Positions 9,029 through 48,496 of a DNA stretch of 53,993 nt are shown here, in pieces. Numbering within the stretch: the first letter of the stretch is position 1; each line of letters starts with the position of its first letter. Both the position numbers and the translations under genes were made by a program. The stretch is from Alphaproteobacteria bacterium (GTDB taxonomy: Bacteria; Pseudomonadota; Alphaproteobacteria; RF32; CAG-239), in the NCBI GenBank assembly GCA_017479985.1, contig JAFVBL010000007.1:1-53993 (forward strand), read 5' to 3'. The notes beneath the pieces are model-generated. The model did no database searches. It saw only the letters and a list, made by a program, of their open reading frames with translations, and was not told the origin of the DNA.

Positions 9029-9850
9029 TTAAAATTCCTGCAGAACTTCGGCACTTTCCGCAGCTTTATCTATATTAACCATAGCGATTTTGTTGTAGCC
9101 GGCATCAACGTGCACAACTTCACCCGTAACGGCGGCGCCCAAATCCGAGAGCAAGCTCAGAGCCATATTGCCGACCTGTGTTTGCGTCACATTGCATTGC
9201 AATGGTGCATTGAGCTCATTCCAACGCAAAATGGTGCGGAAATCTCCGATACCTGATGCCGCCAACGTTTTAATCGGACCGGCAGAAATCGCGTTGACAC
9301 GTACGTTTTGTTTACCCATATCCACAGCGGCATAACGTACCGATGCTTCCAAAGCGGCCTTTGCCACGCCCATAATGTTATAGTTCGGCAAAACGCGTTC
9401 GGCGCCCAAATAAGTCAATGTCACAATCGCGCCGTTTTCGTTCATAATCGGCGAAGCGCAACGGCAGGCTTCCAAAAACGAATAGCAGGAAATATGCATT
9501 GTATTTAAGAAATTGTCGAGCGTGGTATCAATGGTACGTCCGCGCAGCTGATCTTTATCGGAAAAAGCGATTGCATGCACCACAAAGTCAATTTTGCCCC
9601 ACTTTTCGCCGAGTTCCTTAAAGCAATTTTCGACCGAAGCGCTATCCGTCACATCACACTTTATCAACAACGGATTATTCAGCTGTTCTGCCAGCGGTTT
9701 TACGCGCTTTTCAAGCATTTCGTTCTGATACGAAATCGCAATTTGCGCACCGTGTTCATTCAGCGCCTGAGCAATTCCCCACGCAATAGATCTGTCATTG
9801 GCAAGTCCCATAATCAGACCTTTTTTACCCGCCATAAGTTGTTCTGCCAT
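9029..9850 (-). CDS. fabI: Enoyl-[acyl-carrier-protein] reductase (NADH), FabI
   Basis: FabI reduces the enoyl-ACP double bond in the last step of each fatty-acid elongation cycle. The 273-residue product begins at ATG 9850 with AAAGGAT upstream. It is an atypical short-chain dehydrogenase: the nucleotide-binding region reads GLANDRSIAWGIA, and the active-site residues Y147, Y157 and K164 (Y-x6-K) are present. The C-terminal GEVVHVDAGY is typical. The length equals that of classical FabI (about 262-275). It is transcribed alone, ending at a terminator shared with the ynb-like operon. Confidence 0.95.
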   Translation of the reverse strand: MAEQLMAGKKGLIMGLANDRSIAWGIAQALNEHGAQIAISYQNEMLEKRVKPLAEQLNNPLLIKCDVTDSASVENCFKELGEKWGKIDFVVHAIAFSDKDQLRGRTIDTTLDNFLNTMHISCYSFLEACRCASPIMNENGAIVTLTYLGAERVLPNYNIMGVAKAALEASVRYAAVDMGKQNVRVNAISAGPIKTLAASGIGDFRTILRWNELNAPLQCNVTQTQVGNMALSLLSDLGAAVTGEVVHVDAGYNKIAMVNIDKAAESAEVLQEF

Positions 9851-21425: not shown

Positions 21426-21454
21426 AAAATCCGTCTAATGGTCATCTGCTTGTG

Positions 21455-21732
21455 TTTTTTCTCCTCGTGTACCTCTTTTGTACACGTTGTCGAAAAAGCA
21501 CGGCGCATCTGACTCATTATCCGGATTTTTTCCGCGTATATTTTTTGAGGTTAGTTTTTTCTTCTCGTGTACCTCGTATGTACACGTTGTCGAAAAAGCA
21601 CGGCGCATCTGACTCATTATCCGGATTTTTTCCGCGTATATTTTTTGAGGTTAGTTTTTTCTCCTCGTGTACCTCGTATGTACACGTCGTCGAAAAAGCA
21701 CGGCGCATCTGACTCATTATCCGGATTTTTTA
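21455..21732. repeat. 100-bp direct tandem repeat, 2.8 copies
   Basis: Three nearly identical units begin at 21455, 21555 and 21655 (period exactly 100 bp); the last is cut after 78 bp. Each carries an inverted repeat CGTGTAC-(7 nt)-GTACACG followed by a conserved CGAAAAAGCACGGCGCATC block and ATCCGGAT, then T-rich DNA. Copies differ at only a few bases. No gene is seen in this stretch (21426-21915 holds the repeat, a possible terminator and a promoter). The period is not a multiple of three, so each frame changes from copy to copy. Confidence 0.9.
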
Positions 21733-21743
21733 AAACAGTATAA

Positions 21744-21803
21744 AAAGAGACTCATTATTATGAGGAGGTTGTAGCGCAACCGACGTGATAATATCCTCTT
21801 TTG
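21744..21803 (+). terminator. Possible terminator after the repeats
   Basis: AAAAGAG and CTCTTTT bracket an internal hairpin GGTTG-TAGCG-CAACC. The middle of the stem is imperfect, so this is tentative. Confidence 0.35.
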
Positions 21804-43692: not shown

Positions 43693-45693
43693 TTAGCGGA
43701 GATTCATTTTTTGCTGTCTCGTTACGTTTGATTTTGGAATGGATGCAGAACGTTTTTCCTGAAACATTTCTTGTTTTTCTTTTCGGAAGAGCGGACTTTT
43801 TTCGATTTCTTCATATGGCAAAGATTCGAAAGCGTGCGGGACATACAGAACGTTTATATCTGAACTGACTTGCGAACATTCCGGAAGATATTTCAAAGAA
43901 GTAATCTGATTTTTATGGCACGAAAAAATTCCACCGACCACTCGCGGTGCCCCTTTGAGCGAGGTCAGGTGATTGTGATCGCAGAAAAAACTGCTACCGA
44001 CCTTTTCTGGAGCTCCTTCTAAAGAATTCAGTTGGTTGTTCTGGCACCCAAAGTCTTCGACGACTGCTTTCGGTGCACCTTTGAGCGAGGTTAGTTGATT
44101 GTCACTGCAATAAAAACTGCTACCGACCTTTTTCGGTGCTCCTTCTAAAGAATTCAGTCGGTTGTTGTTGCACGAAAAAATTCCACCGACCACTCGCGGT
44201 GCGCCTTTAAGCGAAGTCAATTGATTGTCTTGGCAACAAAAACTTCCACCGACCTCTTCCGGCGCACCTTCTAAAGAAGTCAGCTGATTACCGTAGCACT
44301 CAAAGTTTTCGCCGACTATTTGCGGTGCACCTTCTAAGGAGATTAAATTGATATGACAACACCAGAAAGATCTGCCGACTCTTTTAGGCCCTCCCTTCAA
44401 GGAGAACAGATAATTGTCCGTGCAATCAAAATCTCTGCCGACTGTTTGCGGTGCACCTTTGAGTGAGGTTAGTGGATTATTGCGACAAAAAAAGTCACCG
44501 TTAACTTCCTGAGGTGCGCCTTCCAAAGATATCAATTTATTTTTGCTGCAAAAGACAGAACCGCCGACTGCTTTCGGTGCGCCCTTAAGTGAAGTCAGTT
44601 GATTGTTTTCACAATGAAAATCCCCTTCAATAATAACATCAGATAAATCCGGCAATTCTGTCAGATTTCTATCGGATAAATACAAATTGCCTTTAACGAC
44701 AAATTTTTTCGGCAGGTGCAACACATCATAATATTTGCCTTCTTGTTTAATCAGTCCGAGGTTCTTTTTATCTCCGACTAGTTCAAAATCCTGTGCCTTT
44801 ACAAACTCTTGCGCATACGGCCGATATTTTTCAACCGGTGCGTTATTGCCCTTGCCTTTGCACTGGTGTATTTCCTCTGCGCCGGTTTCTTGGTTGACAC
44901 ACACCTCAAATGTGGCGTGCGGCATACCGTCGGCATCACGCAGAGAATAGATTTTGGTTGTGCCTTTTGCCACATCTTCATCATATCCGCCTCTGCCCAC
45001 GCAATGTCCCATATATTCGCTTTCGTAATCGAGTGCTTCCGGCGTGGTCAGCCGAACAATTTCCATACCGTCCGTCAGTTTCATTACACGCTCAGTACCG
45101 GCAAGGGAGGCCTTATACATTTGCTCATCGCGTTGTCTTAATTCTGCTTTTTGCGCCATAATATCGTGCCATTTTTGTGCTTCAGACAGCGTTTTGGCAA
45201 ATGTATCATAGGCTTCCTGCGTTTTTAAATAGTCAATCCGCAATTTCGGCGCAATTTCTTCTTTACCCTTCGCTTTTGTATCTTTCACGCGCGCCAAAGT
45301 TTTGTTAACATAATTTTCTGCCGCGGAATAAAGATAATCGCGTATCATACCGATATTTTCTGTCAAATGCGGCGGTATTTTTTCTGCTTTAAAACGATGA
45401 ATCGGCTTATTTTCGGCCAAACAGCGCTCCGCCCACGCCGGCAAATTCGGTTCATCTGACGTAACCGGTGTTAAAAATTCGCGGTGTTCAGGCAAATCTT
45501 CTGCCAAATGACTGCGCAGACGGTGTTTGCACCATTGCAACAGCATCGAACGCACAATTGCATCTTTGTTTTGTTCGACAAACGCCGTACTTTTGAAATC
45601 TCCCGATTTAAAAGTTTCCATTTCTTGCCCGTGATATACAATATCGGCAAGGTAGTTGTTCAAATCTTTTTCATTCAGCAAATTTACCGGCAT
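43693..45693 (-). CDS. PcfJ-like protein with about twelve 21-residue repeats
   Basis: ATG 45693 has AAGGAGAT upstream. The 666-residue protein has an N-terminal helical region and a PcfJ-like domain (GHCVGRGGYDEDVAKGTTKI, near residue 233), a family common in phage and plasmid regions. Residues about 358-600 hold about twelve tandem 21-residue repeats with a shared core (FxCxxNxLxSLxGAPxxVG). The repeats are probably a leucine-rich, solenoid-like module. No transposase or phage gene is near. A mobile-element origin is inferred. Confidence 0.8.
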   Translation of the reverse strand: MPVNLLNEKDLNNYLADIVYHGQEMETFKSGDFKSTAFVEQNKDAIVRSMLLQWCKHRLRSHLAEDLPEHREFLTPVTSDEPNLPAWAERCLAENKPIHRFKAEKIPPHLTENIGMIRDYLYSAAENYVNKTLARVKDTKAKGKEEIAPKLRIDYLKTQEAYDTFAKTLSEAQKWHDIMAQKAELRQRDEQMYKASLAGTERVMKLTDGMEIVRLTTPEALDYESEYMGHCVGRGGYDEDVAKGTTKIYSLRDADGMPHATFEVCVNQETGAEEIHQCKGKGNNAPVEKYRPYAQEFVKAQDFELVGDKKNLGLIKQEGKYYDVLHLPKKFVVKGNLYLSDRNLTELPDLSDVIIEGDFHCENNQLTSLKGAPKAVGGSVFCSKNKLISLEGAPQEVNGDFFCRNNPLTSLKGAPQTVGRDFDCTDNYLFSLKGGPKRVGRSFWCCHINLISLEGAPQIVGENFECYGNQLTSLEGAPEEVGGSFCCQDNQLTSLKGAPRVVGGIFSCNNNRLNSLEGAPKKVGSSFYCSDNQLTSLKGAPKAVVEDFGCQNNQLNSLEGAPEKVGSSFFCDHNHLTSLKGAPRVVGGIFSCHKNQITSLKYLPECSQVSSDINVLYVPHAFESLPYEEIEKSPLFRKEKQEMFQEKRSASIPKSNVTRQQKMNLR

Positions 45694-45761: not shown

Positions 45762-46553
45762 CTAAAAATTATTCTTTTCAATCTCTAAAAAATAGTCAAT
45801 CGTTGCTTGTTCAAGTGCCGAGGCGGCGTCGCGATCGCACAAAATAATGCCGTGCGGGTGGCGTTGCAAGACCGAAAGCGTGCAAACGTGGCTGATACCG
45901 CCCTCAATCGCTTGTTTAAGAGCCGGTGCTTTATTGGCCCCGGTCGCCAGAATCATTACTTCCTGAGCATCTGTAATCGTACCGACCCCGACAGTCAAGG
46001 CCTGTATCGGAACCTTGGAAATATCGCCGTCAAAAAAGCGCGAATTGGCCTTAATTGTGCTGTCAGTCAGCGTTTTAATCCGTGTCCGTGATTCAAGCGA
46101 CGAAAACGGCTCATTAAAGGCAATATGACCGTCTTCTCCCACACCGCCGATAAACAAATGTACGCCGCCGATGTCTTTGATTGTCTGCTCATAATTACGG
46201 CATTCTTTGGCATAATCCTTGGTCATACCGTCAAGAATGTGAATATTTTTATGTTGAATATCGATATGATTAAAAAAGTTTTCAAACATAAAATAATGAT
46301 AACTTTGCGGATGTGTCGGTTCCAAACCGAGATATTCGTCCATATTGAACGTGACAACATTTTCAAACGAAACTTTGCCGGCTTTATGGAGCTTAATCAA
46401 TTCGGCATACATTCCGAGCGGTGTTGAGCCCGTCGGAAGCCCAAGAACAAAAGGCTTTTTCGCACTCGGGCGGAAATGATTGATTTTATAGACCACATAT
46501 TGCGCCGCCCACTCGGCAACGGTTTGTTTATCTTGTTTGATAATCACACGCAT
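45762..46553 (-). CDS. nagB: Glucosamine-6-phosphate deaminase
   Basis: NagB converts glucosamine-6-phosphate to fructose-6-phosphate and ammonia, the second step of N-acetylglucosamine use. The 263-residue protein has [25 protein letters not shown] and [17 protein letters not shown], all family hallmarks. Its first 34 bp exist a second time at 47291-47324, next to nagA, on the far side of an inserted gene; nagA and nagB were evidently adjacent before. Confidence 0.95.
46520..46553. repeat. 34-bp direct repeat, copy in nagB
   Basis: The copy covers codons 1-11 of nagB plus one base and is identical to 47291-47324. The flanking bases differ on both sides, so the repeat boundaries are exact. 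Confidence 0.9.
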
Positions 46554-46628
46554 CGTACTAATCCTTAATGTCTAAGTTATTGTAATGCTTATCATTAAAA
46601 ACCGCAAATGTAAATCCAAAAATATTTA

Positions 46629-46656
46629 TTGACTTCTTTATTTTTTTATCTATAAT
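46629..46656 (+). promoter_or_regulatory. Sigma-70 promoter of the inserted gene
   Basis: TTGACT (46629-46634), 16 bp, TATAAT (46651-46656), followed 9 nt later by the 16-nt block AACATCAATTATTTAG. Confidence 0.65.
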
Positions 46657-46710
46657 TATGTTAGTAACATCAATTATTTAGGTATTGTTTAATTTCTAAA
46701 ATTTCAATTT

Positions 46711-47250
46711 ATGAAAAAAATTCTTTTGTTAACAACAATTCTTTTAACAACAATTTTTTGTTGTATGTGTTTGGCTGTGAATGCGGGCGAAACATTTCGT
46801 TACACAGATTACGGCGGCTGTACTCTGGTGACCAAGCATTCAACCTATTGGTTGGGAGGGGAGTCAACCAGTTATGGTCTGTTAAAGAATGGTGTTGAAG
46901 TTTTACCACCGGATTGCGATGTGTGGTATGATGCTGAGTTGCGTATACTGACTTTCAGACGATGTGTAGAAGTTATCAGTAGCAAGTACCAACTCTTACT
47001 CTATTCGGCAGACAGTGGTAAATGTTTGTATTCGGGTTATTATTATGCAGAAAACAATGGTCACCATATGCCTTATGTCACTTTTGAAAATAGTGGAAAA
47101 TACAGAAATGCGATTGTGCATTATTACAACTTACGCTATGGGGACAGGCAAGGAAATGCCCGAAAGACCATTGGTAGTTTTTTCAGAAAAGACGGCAAGT
47201 TATATCAAGTTATGGAAAAACAGGTTAAATATGAAGCTCCCGTAGAATAG
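46711..47250 (+). CDS. Secreted protein of unknown function inserted between nagA and nagB
   Basis: The 179-residue protein has a signal peptide (about 1-25; two cysteines inside it) and a mature domain rich in Tyr, Gly and Cys (four cysteines), with a YDAELRILTFRRC core. ATG 46711 has no Shine-Dalgarno and lies in very AT-rich DNA. The gene faces opposite to nagA and nagB, which flank it as interrupted partners. I recognise no family. Base and start-signal use unlike the neighbours suggest horizontal gain. Confidence 0.75.
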   Translation: MKKILLLTTILLTTIFCCMCLAVNAGETFRYTDYGGCTLVTKHSTYWLGGESTSYGLLKNGVEVLPPDCDVWYDAELRILTFRRCVEVISSKYQLLLYSADSGKCLYSGYYYAENNGHHMPYVTFENSGKYRNAIVHYYNLRYGDRQGNARKTIGSFFRKDGKLYQVMEKQVKYEAPVE

Positions 47251-47266
47251 TTTCTTTATCAAAACT

Positions 47267-47300
47267 CCGCTTAAGGTCGACTACTTTAGGCGGTTTGTTT
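47267..47300 (+). terminator. Rho-independent terminator of the inserted gene
   Basis: CCGCTTAAGG and CTTTAGGCGG form a 10-bp stem (two G-U) with a 7-nt loop, followed by TTTGTTT. The right arm overlaps the start of the second copy of the 34-bp repeat. Confidence 0.7.
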
Positions 47301-47324
47301 ATCTTGTTTGATAATCACACGCAT
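47286..47324 (-). pseudogene. nagB: Remnant of the original nagB start
   Basis: On the minus strand, ATG 47324 opens [12 protein letters not shown] and then a TAA at the insertion junction. Eleven of the twelve residues are those of intact nagB. The ATG lies inside the end of nagA (10-bp overlap), showing that nagA and nagB once overlapped. Confidence 0.75.
47291..47324. repeat. 34-bp direct repeat, copy beside nagA
   Basis: This is identical to 46520-46553. Together the two copies flank a 737-bp segment with the inserted gene. Confidence 0.9.
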
Positions 47325-48496
47325 ATTTGTTTTCCTTTTTGATAAATCTTTCCTTGAATCATTGTATATAACACATTGAGTTTTTCGCTTAAAATCGTAA
47401 TATCGGCATCATACCCCGGTGCAATCAGTCCTAAATGTTCTTGTTTCATAATTCGTGCCGGATTGGTTGAGGCCATATGCACCGCCTGTTCCAAATTGAA
47501 ACCGTACGAAACGATATTACGCACACTGTCAAGCATTGTCAGAGCCGAGCCGGCAATGGCATTATCGGACTTGCGATAAAAACATTCGTCGAGATAAACT
47601 TCTTCACCGTTGGCAATCAGCGGTTTGTTTTTTTGTTTGGTCGGTTTGAGTGCATCGGTAACGAGTACAACTTTATCAAGAGATTTGCAGGTCAGTAGAA
47701 ATTTGATGATTTCCGGATTGATATGAATGCCGTCGGCAATAATTTCGCACGAAAGCTCGGGGTGAATAAACACCGCACCGACCGTACCGGGGTCGCGATG
47801 ATGCATACGGCTCATTGCATTAAACAGATGTGTAACGTGCATAATTCGCGCCTGCATAGCCTCAATCATCTGCTTATAAGTGGCATTGGTATGACCGGCC
47901 TGTAAAACAATGCCCTTAGAAAGACAATAAAGCGCCAGTTCACGCATATTTTTCAACTCCGGCGCAACCGTCATATTGATAATGTGGCCTTCGGAAGCCT
48001 CCCAAAACGCGTCCATCAGATTTAAATCGACCGCACTGATGCTGTCGGGTGACTGCACTCCCAAACGGTCAGGTGAAATAAACGGACCTTCGAGATGCAA
48101 ACCCAAAATGCGTGCGCCTTTTTCGTGTCCCATTGCCTCGGCAATCGCGCGAATACCTTTAAGCATTTGCTGCTTGTTGCCGGAATACAGTGTCGGAATA
48201 AAAGAAGTAACGCCGTATTGCATCAAACCTTCGGACATCTTCAGAATAGATTTATCCGAACAATCTTCCGTACCGTATCCGCCGAAACCGTGAATATGCG
48301 TATCCATAAATCCGGGAACAATATTTGCTCCTCTGGCATCAATAAAATATGTATCTGCCTTAAATGATTTTTTTGCAAAACGTTCTTCGTTGAATACGTC
48401 GATAATTTTATTCTGCTTAATCCAAACTGCACAGTTTTGCATACGTGTATAGCCGTTAAACACCGTTGCATTATGAATACAAATACCGGCAACCAT
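47315..48496 (-). CDS. nagA: N-acetylglucosamine-6-phosphate deacetylase
   Basis: NagA removes the acetyl group from GlcNAc-6-P to feed NagB. The 393-residue amidohydrolase has the metal site FMDTHIHGFGGYGTEDCS, LHLEGPFISP, AGHTNAT, THLFNAMS and VLVTDALKPT. ATG 48496 has AAAGGAG upstream and a promoter at 48528-48556. The stop lies inside the second copy of the 34-bp repeat. Confidence 0.95.
   Translation of the reverse strand: MVAGICIHNATVFNGYTRMQNCAVWIKQNKIIDVFNEERFAKKSFKADTYFIDARGANIVPGFMDTHIHGFGGYGTEDCSDKSILKMSEGLMQYGVTSFIPTLYSGNKQQMLKGIRAIAEAMGHEKGARILGLHLEGPFISPDRLGVQSPDSISAVDLNLMDAFWEASEGHIINMTVAPELKNMRELALYCLSKGIVLQAGHTNATYKQMIEAMQARIMHVTHLFNAMSRMHHRDPGTVGAVFIHPELSCEIIADGIHINPEIIKFLLTCKSLDKVVLVTDALKPTKQKNKPLIANGEEVYLDECFYRKSDNAIAGSALTMLDSVRNIVSYGFNLEQAVHMASTNPARIMKQEHLGLIAPGYDADITILSEKLNVLYTMIQGKIYQKGKQICV

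Follow-up and report, generated by a model that had tools for sequence, protein, structure and literature searches.

How can two overlapping genes of an operon come apart with neither of them being lost? The question is raised by the nagA/nagB pair in a 53,993-nucleotide stretch of an uncultured alphaproteobacterial genome (GenBank assembly GCA_017479985.1, contig JAFVBL010000007.1), hereafter the window. The two genes, both of which match curated NCBIfam models well above cut-off, are parted there by a segment that carries a single gene, here called ins, and the first bases of nagB are present a second time at the end of nagA. A sequence-only reading of the window had proposed that an insertion separated the pair and duplicated the start of nagB. 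We report here what comparison with relatives adds to that proposal, which other placements of ins are similarly marked, and how the competing explanations fare.

The duplicated junction

The repeated bases run from the A of the nagB ATG, on the minus strand, to one base into codon 12, and thus comprise codons 1-11 plus one base. As the sequence-only reading had it, they are present exactly twice, as a 34-bp exact direct repeat whose copies have the same orientation and a spacing of 771 bp (Table 1). The end of nagA reads ATGCGTGTGA, with its stop codon inside the right copy and the same 10-bp overlap that is kept in relatives. The 737 bp between the copies hold, as also anticipated, a promoter-like site, an ORF for a secreted-type protein and a terminator that makes use of the junction.

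Table 1. Features of the nagA/nagB region, in window coordinates
Feature	Position	Strand	Remarks
nagB, glucosamine-6-phosphate deaminase	45762..46553	-	intact
Left repeat copy	46520..46553	-	nagB codons 1-11 plus one base; opens intact nagB
Inserted unit	46554..47290		737 bp; absent from the junction in 14 overlap-bearing genus genomes; once in window genome
nagB-proximal part of insert, leader for nagB	46557..46614	-	weakly similar to G001/G024 nagB leader
Promoter-like site of ins	46629..46656	+	TTGACT-16-TATAAT, 11/12 consensus bases
ins	46711..47250	+	179-aa ORF; start signal-peptide-like (judged by eye)
ins terminator hairpin	47267..47293	+	11 pairs; nagB supplies the last 3 bases and the T-rich tail (47294-47303)
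Right repeat copy	47291..47324	-	remnant of old nagA/nagB junction; holds nagA stop and old nagB ATG
nagA, N-acetylglucosamine-6-phosphate deacetylase	47315..48496	-	intact, 393 aa

The background of such repeats was assessed in 360,075 bases of the window genome (20 stretches, the window and one 6-kb stretch), where exact direct repeats of at least 22 bp at a spacing of 150-20,000 bp were collected and their classes judged by sequence and spacing. All others were tandem or coding repeats, dispersed repeat elements, or the two ends of one 4.7-kb contig, and chance is excluded as the origin of the 34-bp repeat.

Empty sites in relatives and the age of the event

The junction was surveyed in the 23 genomes of the genus that have a nagA match, the window genome included. 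nagA and nagB overlap in 14 of them, by 10 bp in 11 genomes and by 13 bp in 3; one more genome has the genes 5 bp apart, the window genome has the insert, and for the other 7 no nagB lies in the stretch read (G001, G024, G007 and G020; G021, at a contig end; G010 and G004, with a partial nagA). Since close relatives keep the 10- or 13-bp overlap without the insert, an insertion split the pair. An overlap free of the insert had been named beforehand as proof of insertion, and it is seen in these 14 genomes; the predicted length of 10 bp held for the 11 but not for the 3. The outcome that would have spoken against insertion, with arrangement and duplicate common to all relatives, is contradicted by the same 14 bare overlaps.

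Where nagB lies elsewhere on the same contig, its distance from nagA is ~4.2 kb in G001, ~3.5 kb in G024 and ~61 kb in G007, and reading by eye found no nagB remnant at the nagA ends of G001, G024, G007 and G020. A nagB remnant in G021 was not counted: the end of its contig C85 (L083:3604-3755) runs ~20 bp into nagB and then for ~130 bp into foreign-looking sequence, probably as a chimeric contig end, and nagB (from codon 14) opens another contig.

By nagA, the two genomes closest to the window genome are G005 and G022, both overlap-bearing, with which it groups in the nagA tree (support 87/89). In the nifJ tree it shares a clade with G005/G022 and G001/G003/G024, which of these groups is nearer not being resolved, and the nagB tree leaves its placement unsettled.

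The two window copies are identical at 34 of 34 sites, and zero differences bound their divergence at ~8.4% or less (95% bound). This is under half of the divergence of nagB from that of G005, the two genes having 81.0% DNA identity overall and 27 of the 34 repeated bases in common. Because the copies are identical and nagB is ~19% different from its nearest relatives, the event is younger than the split from known relatives. Past the nagA stop codon there is no evident reason for conservation of the right copy, except that ins draws its terminator tail from the T-rich strand.

The inserted unit

Promoter-like sites in the region are not above chance (5 found, 4.4 expected), and terminator-like sites number 2 against 0.7 expected. 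The ins gene, which is transcribed against nagA, would now end on a T-tract supplied by nagB. For its part, nagB has presumably lost translational coupling to nagA and would depend on the leader inside the insert, which includes an AAGGA ribosome-binding-like site. The similarity of this leader to that of nagB in G001 and G024 is equalled by 3 of 5000 shuffles for the last 70 bases and by 5 of 2000 for 150 bases.

With the window ins protein, Pfam gave nothing above cut-off and NCBIfam, PHROGs and PADLOC gave nothing at all, and no restriction-modification match was found for it in these four collections. Its homologs gave weak matches or none (four tested in Pfam, two in PHROGs), and comparison with PDB profiles yielded weak, non-specific matches only (best E 0.035). 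An ins search of further genome contigs gave no match; the nagA search there gave four contigs.

The absence of a transposase and of terminal inverted repeats, noted from the start, was borne out. The unit has one gene only, which lacks a family match; it holds no transposase, and no recombinase was found in it. The best inverted repeat at the ends of the 737-bp insert is equalled by 87 of 1000 shuffles, and no pair of at least 14 bases joins the ends. With the 34-bp copies included, the outer ends do resemble each other somewhat in inverted orientation (a match equalled by 3 of 1000 shuffles), which we think is probably a small palindrome (TTATC-6-GATAA) inside nagB itself.

Three other origins for parts of the arrangement were considered and dismissed. 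That a promoter was captured from the genome's second nagB was set aside as the upstream regions are unlike by eye. Derivation of ins from the trxB locus, where it lies in G001, was dropped as other sequence is present there in G000 (the window genome), G024, G003, G022 and G026, just 154 bases upstream being seen in G005 and 239 in G016. A dispersed terminator repeat as the cause was discarded, the strict hairpin pattern occurring once in 379,219 genome bases, at ins itself.

The ins family and a second duplicated target

Relatives of ins are found in 10 of the 153 genomes of its taxonomic family, its own genome included. Four of them, the window gene (G000:C36), G001:C44, G003:C55 and G028:C52, form a clade (support 87/96) whose members wander: they occupy four places with no common neighbour ORFs within ~6.5 kb. 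In six genomes (G000, G001, G003, G005, G024 and G026) the members of a second clade lie next to the same ~876-aa gene, and this clade looks vertically inherited.

Flanking direct repeats were scanned in 16 placements, drawn from 17 rows of the family by leaving out the weakest (G145, E 8e-4); 12 of the 16 entered the neighbour comparison and 13 the tree. Duplication of host target was seen in 2 placements (the window and G003:C55), repeats due to tandem ins copies in 3 (G111 and G117), and no flanking repeat scoring above 12 in the other 11. The control consisted of 401 ORFs, ins included, from samples of G000 and G003, each of at least 110 aa and at most 3000 bases and at least 450 bases from the end of its stretch. 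Flanking repeats scoring at least 28 were found around ins and around three ORFs of one G003 stretch (C19) beside a tRNA-Thr gene, which were kept in the control count. With the four tandem placements of G111 and G117 set aside, duplication is modestly enriched around ins (2/12 against 3/400, p 0.007), and without the discovery case the figures are 1/11 and 3/400 (p 0.10). The repeat-separated genes of G003:C19 were not accepted as extra cases: they lie beside tRNA-Thr, a similar boundary adjoins the same tRNA (by eye) in G001, G022, G024 and G026, and we read the place as a probable integration hotspot.

The second case, in G003, has the order 116-aa gene, terminator, ins, terminator, ~330 bp with dispersed repeat-like sequence, and 127-aa gene. 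G022 provides the site free of ins, with a single terminator between the 116-aa and 127-aa genes and a short extra ORF-like stretch ahead of that terminator. The two G003 terminator copies are identical to each other at 39 of 41 positions and each to the G022 terminator at 38 of 41, and downstream of ins the host sequence resumes with 114/118 identity to G022. Because its two copies differ, the G003 case is not an echo of assembly. In both cases the duplication is clearly longer than usual transposon duplications, as had been claimed for nagB (34/34 bp there, 39/41 bp in G003). The window and G003 units have no common end sequence, and the ends of the G003 unit are likewise without an inverted repeat beyond chance. 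The duplicated target in G003 is itself a terminator, and an exchange between terminators could be an alternative cause there. The prediction that other inserts with duplications of 30-40 bp would reveal a class of mobile element thus yielded one more case, an ins homolog, which suggests that the ins duplications form a class and falls short of proving it.

Origin of the insertion

The explanation that we consider probable is a recent insertion with long target duplication, in which a unit of promoter, ins and terminator entered the overlapping nagA/nagB junction after the split from known relatives. It builds on parts that are established, namely the empty sites, the exact duplication, the recent date, the contents of the unit and the G003 homolog with its ~40-bp target duplication. 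Each side of the unit received the 34 bp of target with which nagB begins, so that both nagA and nagB stayed whole. The unit would have no recombinase of its own and would have been captured illegitimately. A staggered break might have been filled in, by which the 34 bp were made again, or a polymerase might have switched templates after nagB base 34, read through the unit and then returned to where nagB begins; either route would produce identical copies. The anchor may have been a few identical bases where the ins terminator ends (CCG by an A/T tract), the host sequence being AAACAAACCG. The right junction does lie at that end, the last bases of the stem running directly into nagB, and in G001:C44 the terminator, whose stem is homologous, goes on with an A and a T-run. 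Against capture stand two properties of the left edge, which coincides exactly with the nagB ATG and is followed by ~60 bp resembling the nagB leader of G001/G024; blind target duplication predicts neither.

More tentatively, and with well below even likelihood, the unit of the four-member ins clade may be a wanderer among gut Alphaproteobacteria: self-sufficient with promoter, one gene and terminator, it would move between species and sites without its own recombinase, make 34-40 bp of target anew on landing and use its terminator as the anchor. If true, insertion with long target duplication would extend beyond restriction-modification genes, with this unit as an example.

The leader-like left edge would be accounted for if the segment had been imported from a relative in which accessory genes had already split nagB off. 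One exchange would then have used homology where nagB begins and the other microhomology in the ins terminator, and the repeat would be a by-product of their positions. Such an import might have resembled homology-facilitated illegitimate recombination or the single-crossover integration of a circle. It would fit the split pairs of G001 and G024, in which a convergent gene and a similar hairpin come right after nagA (AAAGAAACCGCCT; AAACAAACCGCCT at the window junction), and the leader similarity over ~60 bp (3/5000 shuffles as good). It would also fit the homologs of three genes of the G001 gap (450-aa, 81-aa and carrier-protein-like) that lie upstream of the ins homolog on its G003 contig, and the start of the repeat exactly at the ATG, where homology between split and unsplit nagB would begin. 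However, apart from that of the window, no ins placement found adjoins nagB, and nagB is without a mosaic tract. A DNA search of 27 genus genomes with the 157 bp on the nagB side gave nothing convincing among the matches listed (best other 29 bases at 93%, AT-rich), and the leader similarity is weak and was noticed post hoc. We therefore hold import to be rather unlikely.

The similar lengths of the two duplications (34 and ~40 bp), flanking insertions of homologous units, might point to a non-autonomous element moved in trans by an enzyme that makes staggered cuts 34-40 bp apart. This route is improbable here, given that neither unit ends in inverted repeats beyond chance, that the two lengths do differ, and that the terminator is the unit's own in one case and the host's in the other.

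Descent from a common ancestor with G001 and G024, which likewise have a split pair, a convergent gene behind nagA and a comparable leader of nagB, is very improbable, the remnant being 34/34 identical to nagB, the gene after nagA in G001/G024 being a different one with no nagB remnant there (by eye), and nagA grouping the window genome with the overlap-bearing G005/G022, a placement that nifJ and nagB do not settle. A misjoin at the 34-bp repeat is conceivable in a draft of 43 contigs that is 83% complete, the more so as the G021 contig breaks off ~20 bp inside nagB, with foreign-looking sequence at its end, but we give it hardly any credence: the sides of the right junction share just 3-6 contiguous bases (judged from homologous terminators), too few for an assembler to join, ins belongs to a family present in this taxonomic family, and the parallel G003 copies differ (39/41) and are thus not one sequence used twice.

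Relation to known systems

Insertion with long target duplication was reportedly described in H. pylori by Nobusato and coworkers in 2000, and to our knowledge its mechanism is still open. Later papers trace it to the comparison of two H. pylori genomes and describe a frequent association with restriction-modification genes (PMC1643837; PMC4978471; PMC3031569). The likeness is close: a gene absent elsewhere is flanked by a long direct duplication, of variable length, that is single in the other genome. Empty sites of this kind are present in 14/23 genus genomes for nagA/nagB and in G022 for the G003 case. The difference lies in the gene and the host, here a secreted-type protein in uncultured Alphaproteobacteria in place of the frequent restriction-modification genes. 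We file ins at nagA/nagB as a new instance of insertion with long target duplication, in a different gene class and a different bacterial group; searches of an open-access library found no report of such an insertion for ins or for the nagA/nagB place. The case is unusually clean: the gene overlap gives the empty site with single-base precision, the two copies are without a mismatch, and a mark of the same kind accompanies a homologous gene elsewhere. It lets one ask if ordinary genes move by a terminator-anchored route without recombinase, and it bears on how an operon of overlapping genes can split with neither gene lost.

The minimal mobile element is said to have been proposed for Neisseria by Saunders and Snyder in 2002. 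The definition given in a later source has incorporation occur solely by homologous recombination and does not mention target duplication (PMC3898611). The nagA/nagB place is similar in that it holds different cassettes (none, ins, or sets of 3.5-4.2 kb), but it differs in that the flanks of the ins insert carry a target duplication. Simple flank exchange would probably not produce a 34-bp duplication.

Homology-facilitated illegitimate recombination combines a homologous anchor with a join of a few bases, which would fit both junctions if the segment was imported; here, in contrast, no donor is known (PMC6382021). Some single genes that have moved in Arabidopsis are flanked by direct repeats of more than 30 bp, the repeat often being present at the empty orthologous site (PMC2869330); that case differs as one from a eukaryote with another repair context. 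An insertion sequence or its non-autonomous derivative would have terminal inverted repeats, which the ins unit lacks. An integron cassette would have an attC site and be inserted by an integrase; the hairpin seen at ins is a terminator, and its stem reaches as far as the junction with host sequence.

Accessory genes and other repeats

Accessory genes fill the nagA-nagB gaps of G001 (L075:3608-7290) and G024 (L079:8093-11264), and genes of the 202-aa and 450-aa types are common to both. The G001 genes of 450 aa, 81 aa and 98 aa, the last carrier-protein-like, have homologs on the ins-bearing G003 contig (L154), and the nagA-adjoining 202-aa gene has none there.

At the tRNA-Thr place of G003:C19 (L210:1-5000; tRNA by ARAGORN), accessory genes are parted by near-identical hairpin sequences that have a recurring AAGTCCGATA...TATCGGACTT block and lie next to the tRNA-end sequence TGGTGCCGCTGA, and the place looks like a hotspot of integration with repeated attachment-like sites. 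A similar tRNA-Thr place (tRNA by eye) lies upstream of a ~700-aa gene in L222, L223, L224 and L225.

Dispersed repeat elements of the form CCCTCCAAACCG...GGTTTGGTC were seen in G000 and G003 (L152:626 and 11792; L149:8622 and 19463; L005 at ~2080-2370), one of them directly behind the second ins terminator of G003, apparently with a duplicated T-tract. Contig G000:C13 (L146, 4674 bp) begins and ends with the same 133 bases, a pattern that a circular replicon or element ~4.5 kb in size would give.

Elsewhere in the window, positions 43693-45693 encode a 666-aa protein with about ten 63-bp (21-aa) repeats of leucine-rich type and an N-terminal HCVG...Y motif; its N-terminal part presumably resembles PcfJ-like proteins. 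Positions 21454-21753 hold three head-to-tail units of 100 bp with TGTACA motifs, and similar units in L145 (~9329-9663) and L150 (~316-530) point to a family of tandem repeats with members at several sites of the genome.
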